NCBI GenBank assembly: GCA_018818925.1
Contig: JAHJQZ010000131.1
Location: forward strand, 1-33,845
Length of the DNA: 33,845 nt
Direction of reading: 5' to 3'
Origin: Alphaproteobacteria bacterium
GTDB lineage: Bacteria; Pseudomonadota; Alphaproteobacteria; Rhizobiales; Devosiaceae
The notes beneath the pieces were generated by a model. That model was given only the letters and a program-made list of their open reading frames with translations, had not been told where the DNA came from and searched no databases. Positions 3,009 to 26,021 of the stretch are shown here, one piece after another; position 1 is the first letter of the stretch, and the number at the start of each line of letters is the position of its first letter. A program made the position numbers and the translations under genes.

Positions 3009-3572
3009 TTAAGCAGGGGCGCGTCTTTGGGGCAAAACCATGTCGATGAGCAACAAAATCACCCCGATCGTGATGGCGGTGTCGCTGATGTTGAAAACGT
3101 AGAAGGACAAGGACTGCCAATGGAAATAGAAAAAGTCCGGCACGGCGCCGTAGATCAGCCGGTCGACGAAATGCGAGGCGGCGCCGCCGAGGCAGACGGC
3201 GAGGCCGAACCGGGTCAGCGCCGTGTCCGATTTGAGCCACCACCAGCCGAGAACGCCGGAAGCGACGGCCATGAGCGCCAGAAGCGCCAGTGCCGGCACG
3301 CCCTGCAGCAGGCCGTAGGAAATGCCGGGATTCCACACGAGCACATAGGAAAAGAACGGCATCACCGCCTCGATGGGGCAGAGCGCCGTCGTTTCCGGCG
3401 GCGGACAGGGCAGGCTCCAGCCGAGGAGGTCGAGCTGGACGAACTTGTGGCCGCGATCGAGGACGAAGGCCATGAGGCCGGAAAAAGCGCTGGCCCAGTA
3501 GGCCGGGCCGGCAGCACTCCCTCTTCCTTTGGGGGAGAGGGTTGGGGTGAGGGGGCCTTCCTGATTGCTCAA
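3009..3572 (-). CDS. lspA: lipoprotein signal peptidase (signal peptidase II), N-terminus from a repeat element
   Basis: LspA cleaves signal peptides from diacylglyceryl-prolipoproteins in the inner membrane. The product shows four hydrophobic segments and the family aspartates: D39/K43 in VLDRGHKF, then WNPGISYG, and the catalytic pair D137 (HFVDRLIYGAVPDFF) and D164 (FNISDTAITIG). It is a divergent member, with HFVDR instead of the usual NLIDR, and a longer CPPPETTALCP loop. The start is unusual. The first ATG in frame (3473) would remove half of the first membrane helix. The only upstream candidate before an in-frame stop (TAG, 3573-3575) is a TTG at 3572, inside a palindromic repeat. With that start, about 18 N-terminal residues are repeat-encoded. 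Family call is firm; the start is not. Confidence 0.85.
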   Translation of the reverse strand: MSNQEGPLTPTLSPKGRGSAAGPAYWASAFSGLMAFVLDRGHKFVQLDLLGWSLPCPPPETTALCPIEAVMPFFSYVLVWNPGISYGLLQGVPALALLALMAVASGVLGWWWLKSDTALTRFGLAVCLGGAASHFVDRLIYGAVPDFFYFHWQSLSFYVFNISDTAITIGVILLLIDMVLPQRRAPA

Positions 3573-3624
3573 CTAGGCCCCCTCACCCGGACCTTTGGTC
3601 CGACCTCTCCCCCAAGGGAGAGGT
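3521..3624. repeat. palindromic repeat, composite copy 1 (lspA-ileS junction)
   Basis: Two inverted units. The left unit, read on the minus strand, ends with GGGTGAGGGGGCC at 3545-3557. The right unit, 3576-3624, starts with the exact reverse complement GGCCCCCTCACCC at 3576-3588 and ends ACCTCTCCCCCAAGGGAGAGGT. The 13-bp inner stem encloses an 18-nt loop (3558-3575), and the outer GGGGGAGAGG (3531-3540) also pairs with 3604-3613. The lspA TTG start lies in the loop. The same unit recurs at 5211-5343 and 25853-25980. Confidence 0.9.
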
Positions 3625-3656
3625 AAATACCGACGCGGTTCGAACGCCAATAACAC

Positions 3657-6600
3657 CTAGAGCCCCGCCGCGGCGCGTTCGCGCATGGCAGTCGCGTCGC
3701 GGGGCGAGAGGTCGGGATAGTCGGGGTCGGACCCCACATCCTCGCTGACCTTCCACGAGCGGGCGCAGCGCCTGCCTCCGGCGCGGGCGAAGACCACCGA
3801 GACGCCGGGCACGTCGTCGAGTCGGAAGGCCTCGGACGGACCCTCGTTCTGGATCACTTCGATACCCGAGGTGATGCAGATTTCGGCGAAGTCCTGTCCG
3901 TGCAAGGCGACGACGAGGTCGGCATCGGCGATGTGGACCTTCGGCGCCGCTTCGAGCGAGGAACCGATGGTCTTGTCGCGCCGCTCGATCTCGAGCGCGC
4001 CGGTGACGACGCGGCGCACCCTGCGGATCAAGGCCCATTTGGCCTCGAGGTCGTCGTCCTTCCAGTCCGCCGGCACCTCGGGAAACAGTTCGAGATGCAC
4101 CGACACGTCGTCGCCGGGATTGCGTTCGAGCCAGGCTTCCTCGGCGGTGAAGCTCAGCACCGGTGCCAGCCAGACCACGAGATGGTTGAACAGCCTGTCG
4201 AGCACGGTCAGGGCGGCCCGGCGCCTGACGCTCGAAATCGGGTCGCAATAAAGCGCGTCCTTGCGAATGTCGAAATAGAAGGCCGACAGATCGATGTTCA
4301 TGAAGGTCGACAAAGCCGAGATAGCGCGTTTGTAGTCGTAATTGTCGTAGGTCTCGCGCACCACGGCGTCGAGCCCGGCGAGCCGGGAGAGCATCAGCCG
4401 TTCGAGTTCCGGCATGTCGGCGGGCGCGACCGCATCCTCGGGCCGGAAATGGGCGAGATTGCCCAGCATCCAGCGGATCGAGTTGCGAAGCTTTCTATAG
4501 TTCTCGACGACGTTCTTGAGGATTTCATCGCCGATGCGATGGTCCTCGGAATAGTCGATCGTCGCCACCCACAGCCTCAGGATATCGGCGCCGTACTGCT
4601 TGATGATGTCCTGCGGAGCGATGGTGTTGCCCAGCGATTTCGACATCTTCATGCCGTCCTTGTCCATGGTGAAGCCATGGGTCAGGACACTGTCATAGGG
4701 CGCGAAACCGTTGGTGCCGCAGCTTTCGAGCAGCGAGGAATGGAACCAGCCGCGATGCTGGTCGGAACCTTCCAGATACATCGAGGCCGGGAATTTCAGA
4801 TGCGGCCATTTCTGCTTGTTGCGCAGGCAGAAGGCATGAGTCGAACCGGAATCGAACCAGACATCGAGAATATCGCGGACCTGCGTCCATGCATCGGGAT
4901 CGTCAACGAGTCCCGTCAGGAACCGCTCCTTGGCCCCATCGGCGAACCAGGCATCGGCGCCTTCGGCTTCGAAAGCGGTGACGATACGCTGGCGCAATTC
5001 CTCGGAGCGCTTGAAATCCGGTCCCGGGATGATCTCGCCGGTCGTCTCGTTGCGGAACACCGCGATCGGCACGCCCCAGGCGCGCTGGCGCGAAAGCACC
5101 CAGTCGGGCCGTTCGGCGATCATCGAATGCAGGCGGTTCTGCCCGGCGGGCGGCACGAAACGCGTCTTGTCGATGGCGGCAAGGGCGCGGGTGCGGAGGG
5201 TGTCGGGCAAGGCCCCCTCACCCATCCCCTGCTGCGCAGGGGACGACCTCTCCCCCGAAGGGAGAGGTGAAGCTGTGGCGTCGCCATTCCTTACCTCTCC
5301 CTTCGGGGGAGAGGTCGGTGCGGCAGCGCCGGGTGAGGGGGCCTTCAAAGCCGCGCCGGATGAGGCATCGAAAACCACGCCGCCCAAATCCTTGTCCATA
5401 TGGACGAACCATTGCGGCGTGTTGCGGAAGATGATCGGCTTCTTGGAGCGCCAGGAATGCGGGTACTGATGCTTCAGCCGCCCGCGCGCGAACAGCGCAT
5501 TGGCATCGATGAGAGCCTGGATGACACGCTTGTTGGCGTCGCCCTTGTTGCCCTTGTCGTCGATGACCCGCGCCGCGCCGCCCTCGGCATTGGCGTCGAA
5601 GCCGGGCGCGTCCTTGGTGTAAAAGCCGGCATCGTCGACCGGGAACGGGATGGCAGTGTCGAACGGGCGTCCCAAGAGCGTAAAGGTTGCCTGTTGTGCG
5701 TCAAAGACAATCGGATTGCCGTGGACACGTTCGACCGAGTTTGCACGCAATTTGCTGGATGCGAATTTCGTCCAGATCTCATAGTCGTCGGCGCCGTGGC
5801 TCGGCGCCGTATGGACGAAGCCAGTGCCGGCATCATCGGTGACGTGTTCTCCATCGAGCAGCGGGATGGCGAAGTCATAGCCGCCGCCGAGACCCTTGAG
5901 GGGGTGGTCGCAAAGGATATGCGCGAGTTCATCGGCGGAAACGTTTCTGATCTTGCGGAGTTTGATCTTTGCTTTCTGCTCACTTGCCTCTGTCAGCGCC
6001 TGCGCGAAAACCAGCTTCTCCCCTGGCTGGGGACCAAATTCGTTCTCGGCAGATTCAACCTCGTAGAGGCCGTATGCGATCCTGGAGGAGAAGGAGATTG
6101 CTCGGTTACCGGGGATCGTCCAAGGAGTCGTCGTCCAAATCACCACCGATGCATCAAGCATTTCAGCTCGTTCATCGGGTGGCGACATTGAAGGTGAATT
6201 GTCGCGGCTAACGTCGAACACGTCGGCGGCTTCCCTCACCGGGAACTTCACCCAGATCGTATCGCTCTCGTAGTCCTGATATTCGATCTCGGCCTCGGCC
6301 AGCGCCGTGCGCTCGACCACCGACCACATCACCGGTTTCGAGCCGCGATAGAGCTGGCCGGTCATGGCGAACTTGTGCAGTTCGCCGACGATCACCGCCT
6401 CGGCGTCGTAGCTCATGGTCAGATACGGATTGTCCCAGTCGCCGATCACCCCGAGGCGCTTGAACTCCTGGCGCTGCACGTCGACCCAATGCTCGGCGAA
6501 GGTCCGGCATTCCTTGCGGAACTCATTGATCGGCACCTCGTCCTTGTTCTTGCCCTTGGCGCGGTACTGCTCCTCGATCTTCCATTCGATCGGCAATCCG

Positions 6601-6920
6601 TGACAATCCCAGCCCGGCACATAGGCGGAATTGTTGCCGAGCATCTGCTTGGACCGGACGACGAGGTCCTTCAAAATCTTGTTGAGGGCATGGCCGATAT
6701 GGATGTTGCCATTGGCATAGGGCGGGCCGTCGTGAAGGGTGAATTTCGGCTTGTCGGCCGATTGCTCGCGCAGACGTTCGAACAGATTCATGTCTTCCCA
6801 GCGCTTCAGCCAGTCGGGCTCGCGGGCGGGCAGGCCGGCGCGCATGGGAAATTCGGTCTTGGGCAGGAAAAGCGTGGCGGAATAGTCGGTTTCCGTCGCT
6901 TCTTGTGCGGTCTCGGTCAT
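3657..6920 (-). CDS. ileS: isoleucyl-tRNA synthetase with in-frame repeat insertion
   Basis: 1087 residues, roughly 100 longer than I expect for alphaproteobacterial IleRS. It charges tRNA-Ile in the cytoplasm. Class I signatures are intact: HIGH at residues 74-77 ([11 protein letters not shown]) and KMSKS at 758-762. The CP1 editing domain lies between ([11 protein letters not shown], then [12 protein letters not shown]), followed by the anticodon-binding helices and a C-terminal RRCARSW remnant of the zinc motif. Residues about 526-570 are encoded by a palindromic repeat (5211-5343) placed between [11 protein letters not shown] and [14 protein letters not shown], a surface connection just after CP1 in related enzymes. 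Parts of CP1 (about 5680-6215) use codons unlike the rest. The frame is unbroken, so the enzyme is presumably functional. Confidence 0.97.
5211..5343. repeat. palindromic repeat, composite copy 2, inserted in ileS coding sequence
   Basis: The left unit, 5211-5268, is GGCCCCCTCACCC, a spacer holding its own small hairpin (cccctgctgcgcagggg), then ACCTCTCCCCCGAAGGGAGAGGT (5246-5268). The right unit is inverted: ACCTCTCCCTTCGGGGGAGAGGT at 5293-5315, ending GGGTGAGGGGGCC at 5331-5343. The two units are arranged opposite to copies 1 and 3, with CCTCACC ends outward. The 133 bp contain no stop in the ileS frame and keep it open. Confidence 0.93.
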
Positions 6921-18001: not shown

Positions 18002-19789
18002 ATGAAAGCCCTATTGATCGCACCGCTTCTCGTGCCGCTTCTGCTGTCCGAGGCCATCGCGGCAGGTAGCCTCGCCAACAAGATTCAGGAGATCCAGACA
18101 CATCTGACCGAAACCGCCGACGGCCAGGCGGCGCCGGCGACGGACGCCGGCGACACTGGCGGAACGCCGGCCGAAACGGCAGACGACGCGCCTCCGCAGG
18201 ACGATGCATCCCCGGCTCAGGATAACGCGCCTCCGCAGGACGATGCATCCCCGGCCCAGGATGACGCGGCGGCCGACGACGATGCCACGCCGGCCGCCGA
18301 CCCGGTACCGGCGATGAGTGTCGAGGACCTGATCCGGGAAGGCGATGAAATCCGCGCCGACGCCTGGTACGAGGAGGACTATCAGGAAGCCGCGTCGCTG
18401 TACCAGCAGGCGGCCGACATGGGCAGCGCCGAGGCGATGTGGCGCCTTGGACTCATGCATGAAAGCGGCGAAGGGTTCGAATCGAGCGACGCGGAAGCGG
18501 TCAATTGGTACCAGCGCGCCGCCGACGGCGGCAGCACTACGGGCATGACCTATCTCGCCGACATGCTGCGCAACGGCTATGGCGTGGCCGAGGACGATGT
18601 CGCTGCGGTCGGGTGGTACCAGAAGGCCGCCGATCTCGGCAATGCCGAGGCGGCGCGCAAGCTCGGGCTGATGTACGATGCCGGCGAGGGCGTGGCGCTC
18701 GACGATTTCAAGGCGGCGCTGCTGTTCCGGCAGGCCAGCGACGGCGGCGACATGCTGGCGACGCGCTTCCTTGCCGAGATGTATCACGACGGCGAAGGCC
18801 TGGCGCAGGACTATGTGCAGGCGGCCTCGCTCTATCTCAAGGCCAGCGAGATGGGCGACGAGATCGCCACGCGCTGGCTCGGCGACATGTACTACCTCGG
18901 CCAGGGCGTCGCCCAGGACTACCGCCGGGCGGCGCAGTATTTCGAAACCGCCGCCGATGCCGGCGACGCCGTTTCCATGCGCTGGCTCGGCGAAATGTAC
19001 GATGCCGGCGAGGGCGTCGACGAAGACGATGTCCGCGCCGTCTCCTATTTCCGCTCTGCGGTGGAGGCCGGCGACACCATCGCCGCCCGCGACCTCGGCA
19101 TCATGCTCGAATTCGGCCTCGGCGCCGAGCAGGATTATGCCGAAGCGCTCAAGAATTACCAGATCGCCGTCGACGACGGCGATGCCGTGGCGCTGCGCCG
19201 TCTCGGGCTGATGTACGACCTTGCCAAGGGCGTCGACGAGGACAATCCGCGCGCCATCGAGCTCTACAAGCAGGCGCGCGAGGGCGGCGACATCATCGCC
19301 ACCAGCATACTCGGACAGATGTACGAGGACGGCGAAGGCGTCACGGCGGACCTTTTGCAGGCGGCTGTCTATTACCGCGAGGCGGCGCAGGCCGAAGACA
19401 CCGACGGCATGCGGCGGCTCGGCATCCTGCAATTCGAGGGGCGGGGCCTGGCCAAGGACCCGGAAGAGGCGGTGCAATGGTTCCTGAAGGCGGCCGACAA
19501 GGGCGACCTCGAATCGCATTGGTGGCTGGCCGTTGCCTATCTTTATGGCGATGGTGTCTCCGAGGATGCGGTGCTCGCGGCGGACTATGCCTATTACGCC
19601 ATCGTCGGCGGGCACCAGTATGCGCTCGATTCCCTGATCAATATCGGCGAATACAATACCAGCCGTGGATTCCGCGCCCGGCTGCAGGAGAACATGCAGG
19701 CCGATGGATTCTACGAGGGCAAGATCGACGCGAGCTTCGGGCCGAAGACCCGCGAGGCGCTCAACGCCGCCTTCGCCAGCGCCCAGTAG
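18002..19789 (+). CDS. secreted Sel1-repeat protein with C-terminal peptidoglycan-binding domain
   Basis: 595 residues. ATG 18002 has GGAGG 8 bp upstream and starts a signal peptide (MKALLIAPLLVPLLLSEAIA), so the protein is exported. A short acidic Pro/Asp/Ala region (about 40-105) contains a duplicated 13-residue unit. About twelve Sel1-type repeats of 36 residues follow (roughly 115-545), with the pattern A-x-x-L-G-x-M-Y-x-x-G-x-G-V. The end (QADGFYEGKIDASFGPKTRE) is a peptidoglycan_binding_1-type domain. Sel1 arrays bind proteins; together with the wall-binding end this suggests a periplasmic scaffold at the cell wall. The periplasmic part of PodJ has a similar order, but this protein lacks the coiled coil and membrane anchor. 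Single gene, with a hairpin after it. Confidence 0.9.
   Translation: MKALLIAPLLVPLLLSEAIAAGSLANKIQEIQTHLTETADGQAAPATDAGDTGGTPAETADDAPPQDDASPAQDNAPPQDDASPAQDDAAADDDATPAADPVPAMSVEDLIREGDEIRADAWYEEDYQEAASLYQQAADMGSAEAMWRLGLMHESGEGFESSDAEAVNWYQRAADGGSTTGMTYLADMLRNGYGVAEDDVAAVGWYQKAADLGNAEAARKLGLMYDAGEGVALDDFKAALLFRQASDGGDMLATRFLAEMYHDGEGLAQDYVQAASLYLKASEMGDEIATRWLGDMYYLGQGVAQDYRRAAQYFETAADAGDAVSMRWLGEMYDAGEGVDEDDVRAVSYFRSAVEAGDTIAARDLGIMLEFGLGAEQDYAEALKNYQIAVDDGDAVALRRLGLMYDLAKGVDEDNPRAIELYKQAREGGDIIATSILGQMYEDGEGVTADLLQAAVYYREAAQAEDTDGMRRLGILQFEGRGLAKDPEEAVQWFLKAADKGDLESHWWLAVAYLYGDGVSEDAVLAADYAYYAIVGGHQYALDSLINIGEYNTSRGFRARLQENMQADGFYEGKIDASFGPKTREALNAAFASAQ
18188..18265 (+). repeat. 39-bp tandem duplication in the Sel1 gene
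   Basis: Two adjacent 39-bp copies (18188-18226 and 18227-18265) differing at only two or three bases. They encode the 13-residue unit APPQDDASPAQD(N/D) in the acidic linker before the Sel1 repeats. Confidence 0.9.
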
Positions 19790-25415: not shown

Positions 25416-26021
25416 CGTTGATTTCCGGACATGCTTGTTGGGCATGTGCCGGCTCCGGATATTTGGGGGGAATCCGGCGCGGCAACGGCTATGGGGCGCC
25501 GTTCAGTGCCGGTGTTGGTTCTGGATTTTGGGGGTCAGGTCCCGAGACCTAGCGGAGCGTTTTCAGCTCCGGGGCACAATGCCTGAAGAACCGATTCCAA
25601 AATCGAAGAGCGGTCAGACGTTCGGTCATATATGCCCTCCTCTTGGTTTGGAATGGTCGGGACGGTGCTTGCTATCCGTGTTCGGGGCGACGAGCAAGAT
25701 CGCATCCGTGGAAAATACAAGTGACCGGCTTACTGTTGCCGAAAAGACACAGACAAATTCGCAACAGTCATGGACGGCATCGCCGGGACAAATGCAAGAA
25801 CAAGTCTAGACGCATTCGCGTCTTGACGGAAACCGCGCGCTTGGCACCTTTCACCTCTCCCTTGGGGGAGAGGTCGGGCCGGAGCGCAGCGGAGGTCCGG
25901 GTGAGGGGGCCTTCGCAATGTTTGCAGAAAGGCCCCCTCACCCGCCGCTTCGCGTCGACCTCTCCCCCAAAGGGAGAGGTGAAGGAAGCGCCCGCTTCCA
26001 TCAAATCTCGGGATCAACCGT
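25416..26021. other. intergenic region, no clear gene
   Basis: About 600 bp. The part from 25416 to 25850 shows no convincing gene on either strand; short open frames lack recognisable content. It has lower GC than the surroundings and may be the remnant of a lost gene. The part from 25853 to 25980 is the third copy of the palindromic repeat. Confidence 0.6.
25853..25980. repeat. palindromic repeat, composite copy 3
   Basis: The left unit, inverted: ACCTCTCCCTTGGGGGAGAGGT (25853-25874) to GGGTGAGGGGGCC (25899-25911). The right unit: GGCCCCCTCACCC (25931-25943) to ACCTCTCCCCCAAAGGGAGAGGT (25958-25980). The arrangement equals copy 1. It lies 41 bp downstream of the protease stop codon, where its fold could act as a transcript 3' end. 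Confidence 0.92.

Follow-up and report, generated by a model that had tools for sequence, protein, structure and literature searches.

A palindromic element within ileS

The window, by which we mean the whole stretch of 33,845 nucleotides that was analysed, carries ileS, the gene of isoleucyl-tRNA synthetase (IleRS), which is a core and essential enzyme of protein synthesis. The gene is one open frame of 1087 amino acids, the translation of which contains both the HIGH and the KMSKS motifs, and its product matches the NCBIfam model TIGR00392 (isoleucine--tRNA ligase) above the cut-off. The predicted structure resembles that of solved bacterial IleRS, the best match being 8c9f with a TM-score of 0.87 by target length. 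In a protein search of the window's genome and 60 relatives, this ileS was the sole IleRS match within its own genome among the matches listed. A palindromic doublet interrupts the gene in frame, and two further doublets of its family lie in the same window. The features are as follows, with the evidence for each in brackets.

3657 to 6920, stop included, minus strand: ileS, isoleucyl-tRNA synthetase, 1087 aa (translation, TIGR00392, fold match)
5209 to 5345, no strand: palindromic tips-out doublet, in frame in ileS, residues 526-571 (sequence and fold)
5210 to 5223, minus strand: terminal tip AGGCCCCCTCACCC, the reverse of GGGTGAGGGGGCCT (tip pattern search)
5224 to 5243, no strand: small hairpin beside the tip, ATCCCCTGCTGCGCAGGGGA (sequence and fold)
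5244 to 5268, no strand: long arm 1, perfect complement of arm 2 and itself a CTCTCCC hairpin (inverted-repeat search)
5269 to 5292, no strand: spacer of 24 nt between the two units (inverted-repeat search)
5293 to 5317, no strand: long arm 2, 25 nt (inverted-repeat search)
5331 to 5344, plus strand: terminal tip GGGTGAGGGGGCCT (tip pattern search)
approximately 3490 to 3643, no strand: tips-in doublet of the element's family, directly 3' of ileS, with tips at 3545-3558 and 3575-3588 (tip search)
approximately 25844 to 25998, no strand: tips-in doublet of the element's family, with tips at 25899-25912 and 25930-25943 (tip search)

The element is 137 bp long, with terminal inverted repeats of 14 bp and two perfectly complementary arms of 25 nt. 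Its RNA fold has an energy of -116.9 kcal/mol, against -62.6 +/- 4.4 kcal/mol for 200 dinucleotide shuffles (z -12.4), none of which was as low. The original prediction had placed an in-frame palindromic repeat at 5211-5343, adding about 44 residues (526-570) to the enzyme, with copies elsewhere in the window. The repeat is indeed present, extended slightly to 5209-5345 and adding about 46 residues (526-571), and the copies correspond to the two doublets with tips between 3545 and 3588 and between 25899 and 25943. The loop of IleRS from WFVHMD to LRTRAL comprises 65 residues; since about 46 of these come from the element, the remainder is an extended host loop. An Rfam scan of the window returned only a tRNA. 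A coding bias of the element was considered but gained no support, as its three open frames equal those of its shuffles (mean 3.06) and of ordinary sequence. An ordinary 137-nt window of this GC-rich stretch has on average 3.25 open frames out of six, so that in-frame capture should be easy.

In the AlphaFold2 model of IleRS, which has a mean pLDDT of 79.6, the insert sits between the strand 503-507 and the helix 575-585, and the pLDDT is 28-39 over residues 531-570. Because the conserved stretches 194-215 and 487-502 also fall under 50, these values point weakly to a disordered insert peptide. Elsewhere in the protein, residues 389-413 (window 5682-5756) form a 25-residue insert that does not look repeat-like, and the protein of locus L035 has 42 residues at about that place.

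The repeat family in the draft genome

A search for the tip pattern, allowing at most one mismatch, gave 62 matches in the 3.18-Mb draft and none with the reversed control. One of these matches falls by chance within the catalytic domain of the threonyl-tRNA synthetase (ThrRS) gene. The loci fetched were parsed into 35 clusters, comprising 6 tips-out doublets, 22 tips-in doublets and 7 single matches, one of which is the ThrRS chance match. The tips-out copies have 14-bp tips, some with one mismatch, and no target-site duplication was seen by eye at any of the six. Three of them lie in frame in family-confirmed genes, namely ileS, cobN (TIGR02257) and pdhC (TIGR01349), the latter being the gene of the pyruvate dehydrogenase acetyltransferase, with the copy in a linker. 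The further in-frame copies that the original prediction proposed to look for in this genome are therefore those of cobN and pdhC. At the clusters outside these three genes, 17 frames of at least 40 residues on both sides were scanned against Pfam, and no other cluster was found within a recognised gene. Two of the 17 frames gave Pfam matches, one to ThrRS and one to the DUF7424 domain, which lies downstream of its element. Thus 3 of 6 tips-out copies are in genes, versus 0 of 28 other clusters with ThrRS left out (hypergeometric 0.003, calculated by hand and post hoc).

A Y1 transposase was considered as the mobiliser and rejected, there being one Y1_Tnp gene, on contig C98, and no tip match on that contig. 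C98 does not occur among the 40 element candidates scored of the 58 in the genome. Two other repetitive stretches of the window are noted here. Positions 438-695 hold a degenerate array of GC-rich 27-bp units with overlapping open frames, and positions 18505-19365 hold direct repeats of about 105 nt, several of them spaced 108 nt apart, within a long open frame.

Filled and empty loops in relatives

We compared 110 IleRS rows, made up of 30 loci from 61 genomes and 80 named loci of the 230 that encode a relative; seven genomes occur twice among them. Both loop anchors lie within one open frame in all 110 rows. The stretch from WF..MD to LR is only 8-10 residues long in 70 of the 110, and in the alignment the loop flanks of the solved IleRS structures 1ffy and 8c9e are 0 and 3 residues apart. 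Long loops without a repeat also occur in some relatives. In the protein search, loops of at least 20 residues were seen in 76 of 120 proteins, which is a biased sample and not a frequency, because the region searched with included the insert. The three proteins most similar to that of the window among the 52 aligned to it, P0002, P0003 and P0004 (85, 87 and 83% identical), lack the repeat, their loops being 24, 9 and 24 residues long. The element is thus absent from similar IleRS, an outcome that the original prediction had named as support for insertion, and it is a resident multi-copy repeat; both points support the proposal that it was inserted after the gene evolved. Some rows with a short loop are close neighbours of rows that bear an insert (for example L094 beside L092, L112 beside L097).

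After removal of 7 duplicate genomes and 3 fragments, 100 rows remained, 19 of which have a loop that was judged by eye to be repeat-coded. Among 26 inserts of at least 25 residues, the perfect stems in the loop DNA have a median length of 8.5 bp, versus 5.2 bp in windows of the same gene. Copies of the inserts were sought in the 18 host genomes other than the window's own, using joined queries. The match counts mix all joined inserts and 40 candidates were scored in most genomes, and we therefore took as evidence only those matches that fall in the query on the insert of the genome in question or on its unit. Among the matches listed, 12 of the 18 genomes have further copies of their own insert or its unit: Pelagibacterium lacus (G022), D. 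enhydra (G013), G037, five more Devosia (G061-G065), Ahrensia (G066), Rhizobiaceae ECS31B3 (G067), Tianweitania (G068) and Aurantimonas endophytica (G070), the last with 2 insert copies among the matches listed. For D. elaeis and D. oryzisoli the evidence comes in part from their unit within a relative's insert. The insert of P. lacus has further copies of 98-100% identity over 53-57 nt in its own genome, and it is at most 83% like the other inserts of the strict set defined below.

In the remaining six genomes there are no copies of the insert or hardly any. The insert of G012 is not clearly multi-copy among the matches listed, and Mesorhizobium J18 (G069) has one place, which matches a relative's unit. 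Aquibium carbonis (G071), Fulvimarina manganoxydans (G072), Paramesorhizobium deserti (G073) and Fulvimarina sp. NAT173 (G074) have 0-2 other pieces, G074 having been searched with the inserts of relatives. As these inserts are not clearly multi-copy, L123, L131, L145, L156, L034 and L144 were left out of the strict set, which has 13 rows, the window's own and the 12 multi-copy ones. By the terms of the original prediction, the same insert standing at the same place in distant relatives that lack the repeat would speak against it. Inserts do stand at the same place in distant relatives; those of 12 of the 18 genomes are multi-copy repeats there, and those of six are not clearly so. The recurrence of inserts at this loop is a new result that goes beyond the original prediction.

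Among the 13 strict inserts, 12 are connected with one another by matches with E-values up to 1e-4 (72-94% over 27-136 nt), some of them on opposite strands, and the Tianweitania insert stands alone. We therefore dropped the notion of unrelated repeat families in each lineage, and by the same token common descent is less sharply excluded. On sequence grounds, the majority of the 13 fall into a single broad superfamily of repeats with CTCCC hairpins. The strict inserts differ in the units that they hold, in the number of units, in strand and in reading phase; the CTCCC arm occurs on either strand and in each of the three phases (7, 9 and 4 of 20 arms). Outside the strict set, the Fulvimarina inserts of L131 and L156 are 88% alike. 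A unit read as PSSGP-GHLLP-GEK is common, in the same frame, to several lineages (L096, L099, L126, P0013, P0033, P0068, P0088 and others), and this frame is shared even though, by eye, none of the three frames of the L096 unit seems closed; a frame preference or shared descent may lie behind this. P0006, like P0014 of the Pelagibacterium type, has the unit of P0014 and an extra first unit, and the comparison of the two suggests that doublets at the loop may form stepwise.

A FastTree tree was made from the 100 rows with the loop left out. The 13 strict rows need 13 changes on this tree, 12 of them forced by branches of at least 95%, and the labels show the same scatter as shuffled ones (mean 12.5). 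For the wider set of 19 rows, 19 changes are needed, 17 of which are forced.

Along IleRS, repeat-like inserts gather at two loops, the one with residues 526-571 and another near residue 343. The latter belongs to the editing part, and the inserts of Aquibium sp. ELW1220, Nitratireductor arenosus and Tianweitania (L155, L150 and L154) there are repeat-coded. At other variable places the inserts are mostly not repeat-like, with L035 and L093 as possible exceptions. CobN was sought in 41 genomes, 37 of which gave a match, and 30 loci were read. At site 1, the place of this genome's element, 7 of the 30 loci have repeat-coded inserts; of the 25 loci parsed, these 7 have CTCCC-type hairpins with stems of 8-9 bp, versus 2-7 bp in the 18 others. 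By eye, another CobN loop, which precedes the LFYR motif, looks repeat-coded in several of the same genomes and in other genomes. Three stretches of this genome's CobN (L005:2-3136; contig C113:24817-27951 of G000) look repeat-coded, and in the family's other genomes (L212-L223) repeat-coded inserts are seen at the same loops, one of them, in L218, of 135 residues. The PdhC linker with the element is, as we assume from the domain order, the one after the lipoyl domain. It is long and mostly Ala/Pro-rich in the 30 loci read. The linkers of L198 and L199 look coded by another repeat, and peptides of L199 such as LRQAQDEG and HPELVEG presumably belong to another repeat family.

Explanations and known palindromic elements

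The most probable reading, in our judgement, is that a doublet of a resident repeat family in ileS is translated as a flexible extension, at a loop that tolerates inserts and has likely been filled many times independently. The frame kept in all 110 rows makes translation of the element likely. A resident repeat would spread and land at many genomic sites, and selection would remove the insertions that break essential genes, so that those left within genes would keep the frame and lie in flexible loops. Candidates for such loops are the IleRS loop between strand and helix (after residue 509), the two CobN loops and the PdhC linker. If no other insertions survive in essential genes, a small number of loops will be filled repeatedly. 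The peptide would be mostly neutral, since unit type, number, orientation and phase vary among lineages and yet the gene stays in frame. Tolerance of inserts and preferred insertion at the loop both fit the recurrence. As these free-living relatives have filled loops next to empty ones, and repeats that recur in each genome, a hotspot and common descent become directly testable against each other, and the system suggests a way for mobile non-coding DNA to become part of conserved proteins in bacteria other than Rickettsia.

A further-reaching version, in which fixed acceptor loops (two in IleRS, and those of CobN and PdhC) repeatedly take up the palindromic mobile DNA of each lineage and the hairpin or the peptide is useful, seems doubtful to us; if true, such loops would be a standing route from mobile DNA to protein. 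It is unlikely that the insert is kept for a function, either through an mRNA hairpin that slows ribosomes at a domain boundary or through a peptide that alters the enzyme. The very stable hairpin (-116.9 kcal/mol), the recurrence at one place in two genes and the unit that several lineages read in one and the same frame would fit a function, but most IleRS rows do without an insert and the inserts have no one peptide in common.

We regard as quite unlikely that one ancient insertion in the loop was inherited and then diverged, was lost or was overwritten by conversion with resident repeats. The filling of the same loop in many lineages, the similarity among 12 of the 13 strict inserts and between those of the two Fulvimarina, and the long non-repeat loops of some relatives would all be accounted for in this way. 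However, the loop is short in 70 of 110 rows, including close neighbours of bearers, and orientation and phase differ among the inserts. Furthermore, 13 changes for 13 rows make a single old insertion unlikely, in a count that does not tell gains from losses. Removal of the insert from the mRNA, or its skipping by the ribosome, would retain the ancestral form of an enzyme generally known as essential and would fit the strong hairpin, but it does not require the frame and the stop-free reading that are kept in 110 of 110 rows, and we consider it very improbable. The same holds for a repeat misjoined into ileS during assembly, since, even in a draft of 177 contigs with 4.6% contamination, ileS stays in frame on either side of the copy, which lies 5 kb inside a 33.8-kb contig, and similar loops occur in P0006 and P0007, from contigs of 3.86 and 3.89 Mb.

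In-frame palindromic elements are already known, from Rickettsia and as intragenic REPs. Parallel capture at one IleRS loop, and at CobN, across Rhizobiales appears to be new, and in the open-licence literature we recognised no report of repeat inserts in Rhizobiales IleRS or CobN. The Rickettsia palindromic elements (RPE) are described as repeats of 100-150 bp that lie between genes and, in frame, within conserved genes at solvent-exposed places, and RPE-7 is listed in a Rickettsia isoleucyl-tRNA synthetase (PMC3767692). That paper, on Rickettsia japonica, weighs a hotspot against a common origin for elements at one gene position; its authors call hotspots not negligible and favour a common origin for RPE-4, RPE-6 and RPE-7 (PMC3767692). 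An RPE-bearing guanylate kinase is reported to be active with a changed substrate affinity (PMC2229807). Our element shares with RPE and with the Wolbachia palindromic elements the size of the palindrome (137 bp), a stable stem-loop (z -12.4) and inverted termini (14-bp tips), and with RPE the presence of copies both between genes and in frame, here in ileS, cobN and pdhC. In contrast to RPE, it belongs to another alphaproteobacterial order, it is GC-rich, and the inserts are spread over many free-living genera in which filled loops stand next to empty ones. By eye, neither strand of 5209-5345 contains the ATGAC motif of RPE-4/6/7. The likeness to RPE raised in the original prediction therefore stands for the way the element works and not for membership.

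REPs and REP dimers have been described within open reading frames, including those of tRNA synthetases in three species, and the recB genes of two Xanthomonas have different REPs at about one site (PMC3733652). The present element resembles such intragenic REPs (GTAG/CGTC) in lying inside reading frames, a tRNA synthetase included, and in forming inverted doublets (6 tips-out and 22 tips-in among 35 clusters). It differs in the extent of the recurrence, which covers 13 genomes for one gene and, for a second, 7 of 30 loci. In the copies printed, no GTAG/CGTC end tag was seen by eye; the ends are AGGCCCCCTCACCC, with no common tag before the CTCTCCC hairpin. As for a REP/REPIN system with a RAYT, no repeat tip flanks the one Y1 transposase gene found (contig C98). 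Since the tags tested, those of RPE-4/6/7 and GTAG/CGTC, both failed, we class the element as working like these repeats and not as a member of them. ERIC and the 107-bp form of Correia/NEMIS are likewise short, have terminal inverted repeats and are read as protein when in frame (PMC2229807, PMC10969869). The 14-bp terminal inverted repeats recall MITEs; no target-site duplication was seen by eye at the six tips-out copies, and no matching transposase was found. The inserts of D. equisanguinis, D. oryzisoli and Rhizobiaceae ECS31B3 look like what we take to be rhizobial RIME or 'CCCTCATCC...CTTCTCCCC' repeats.
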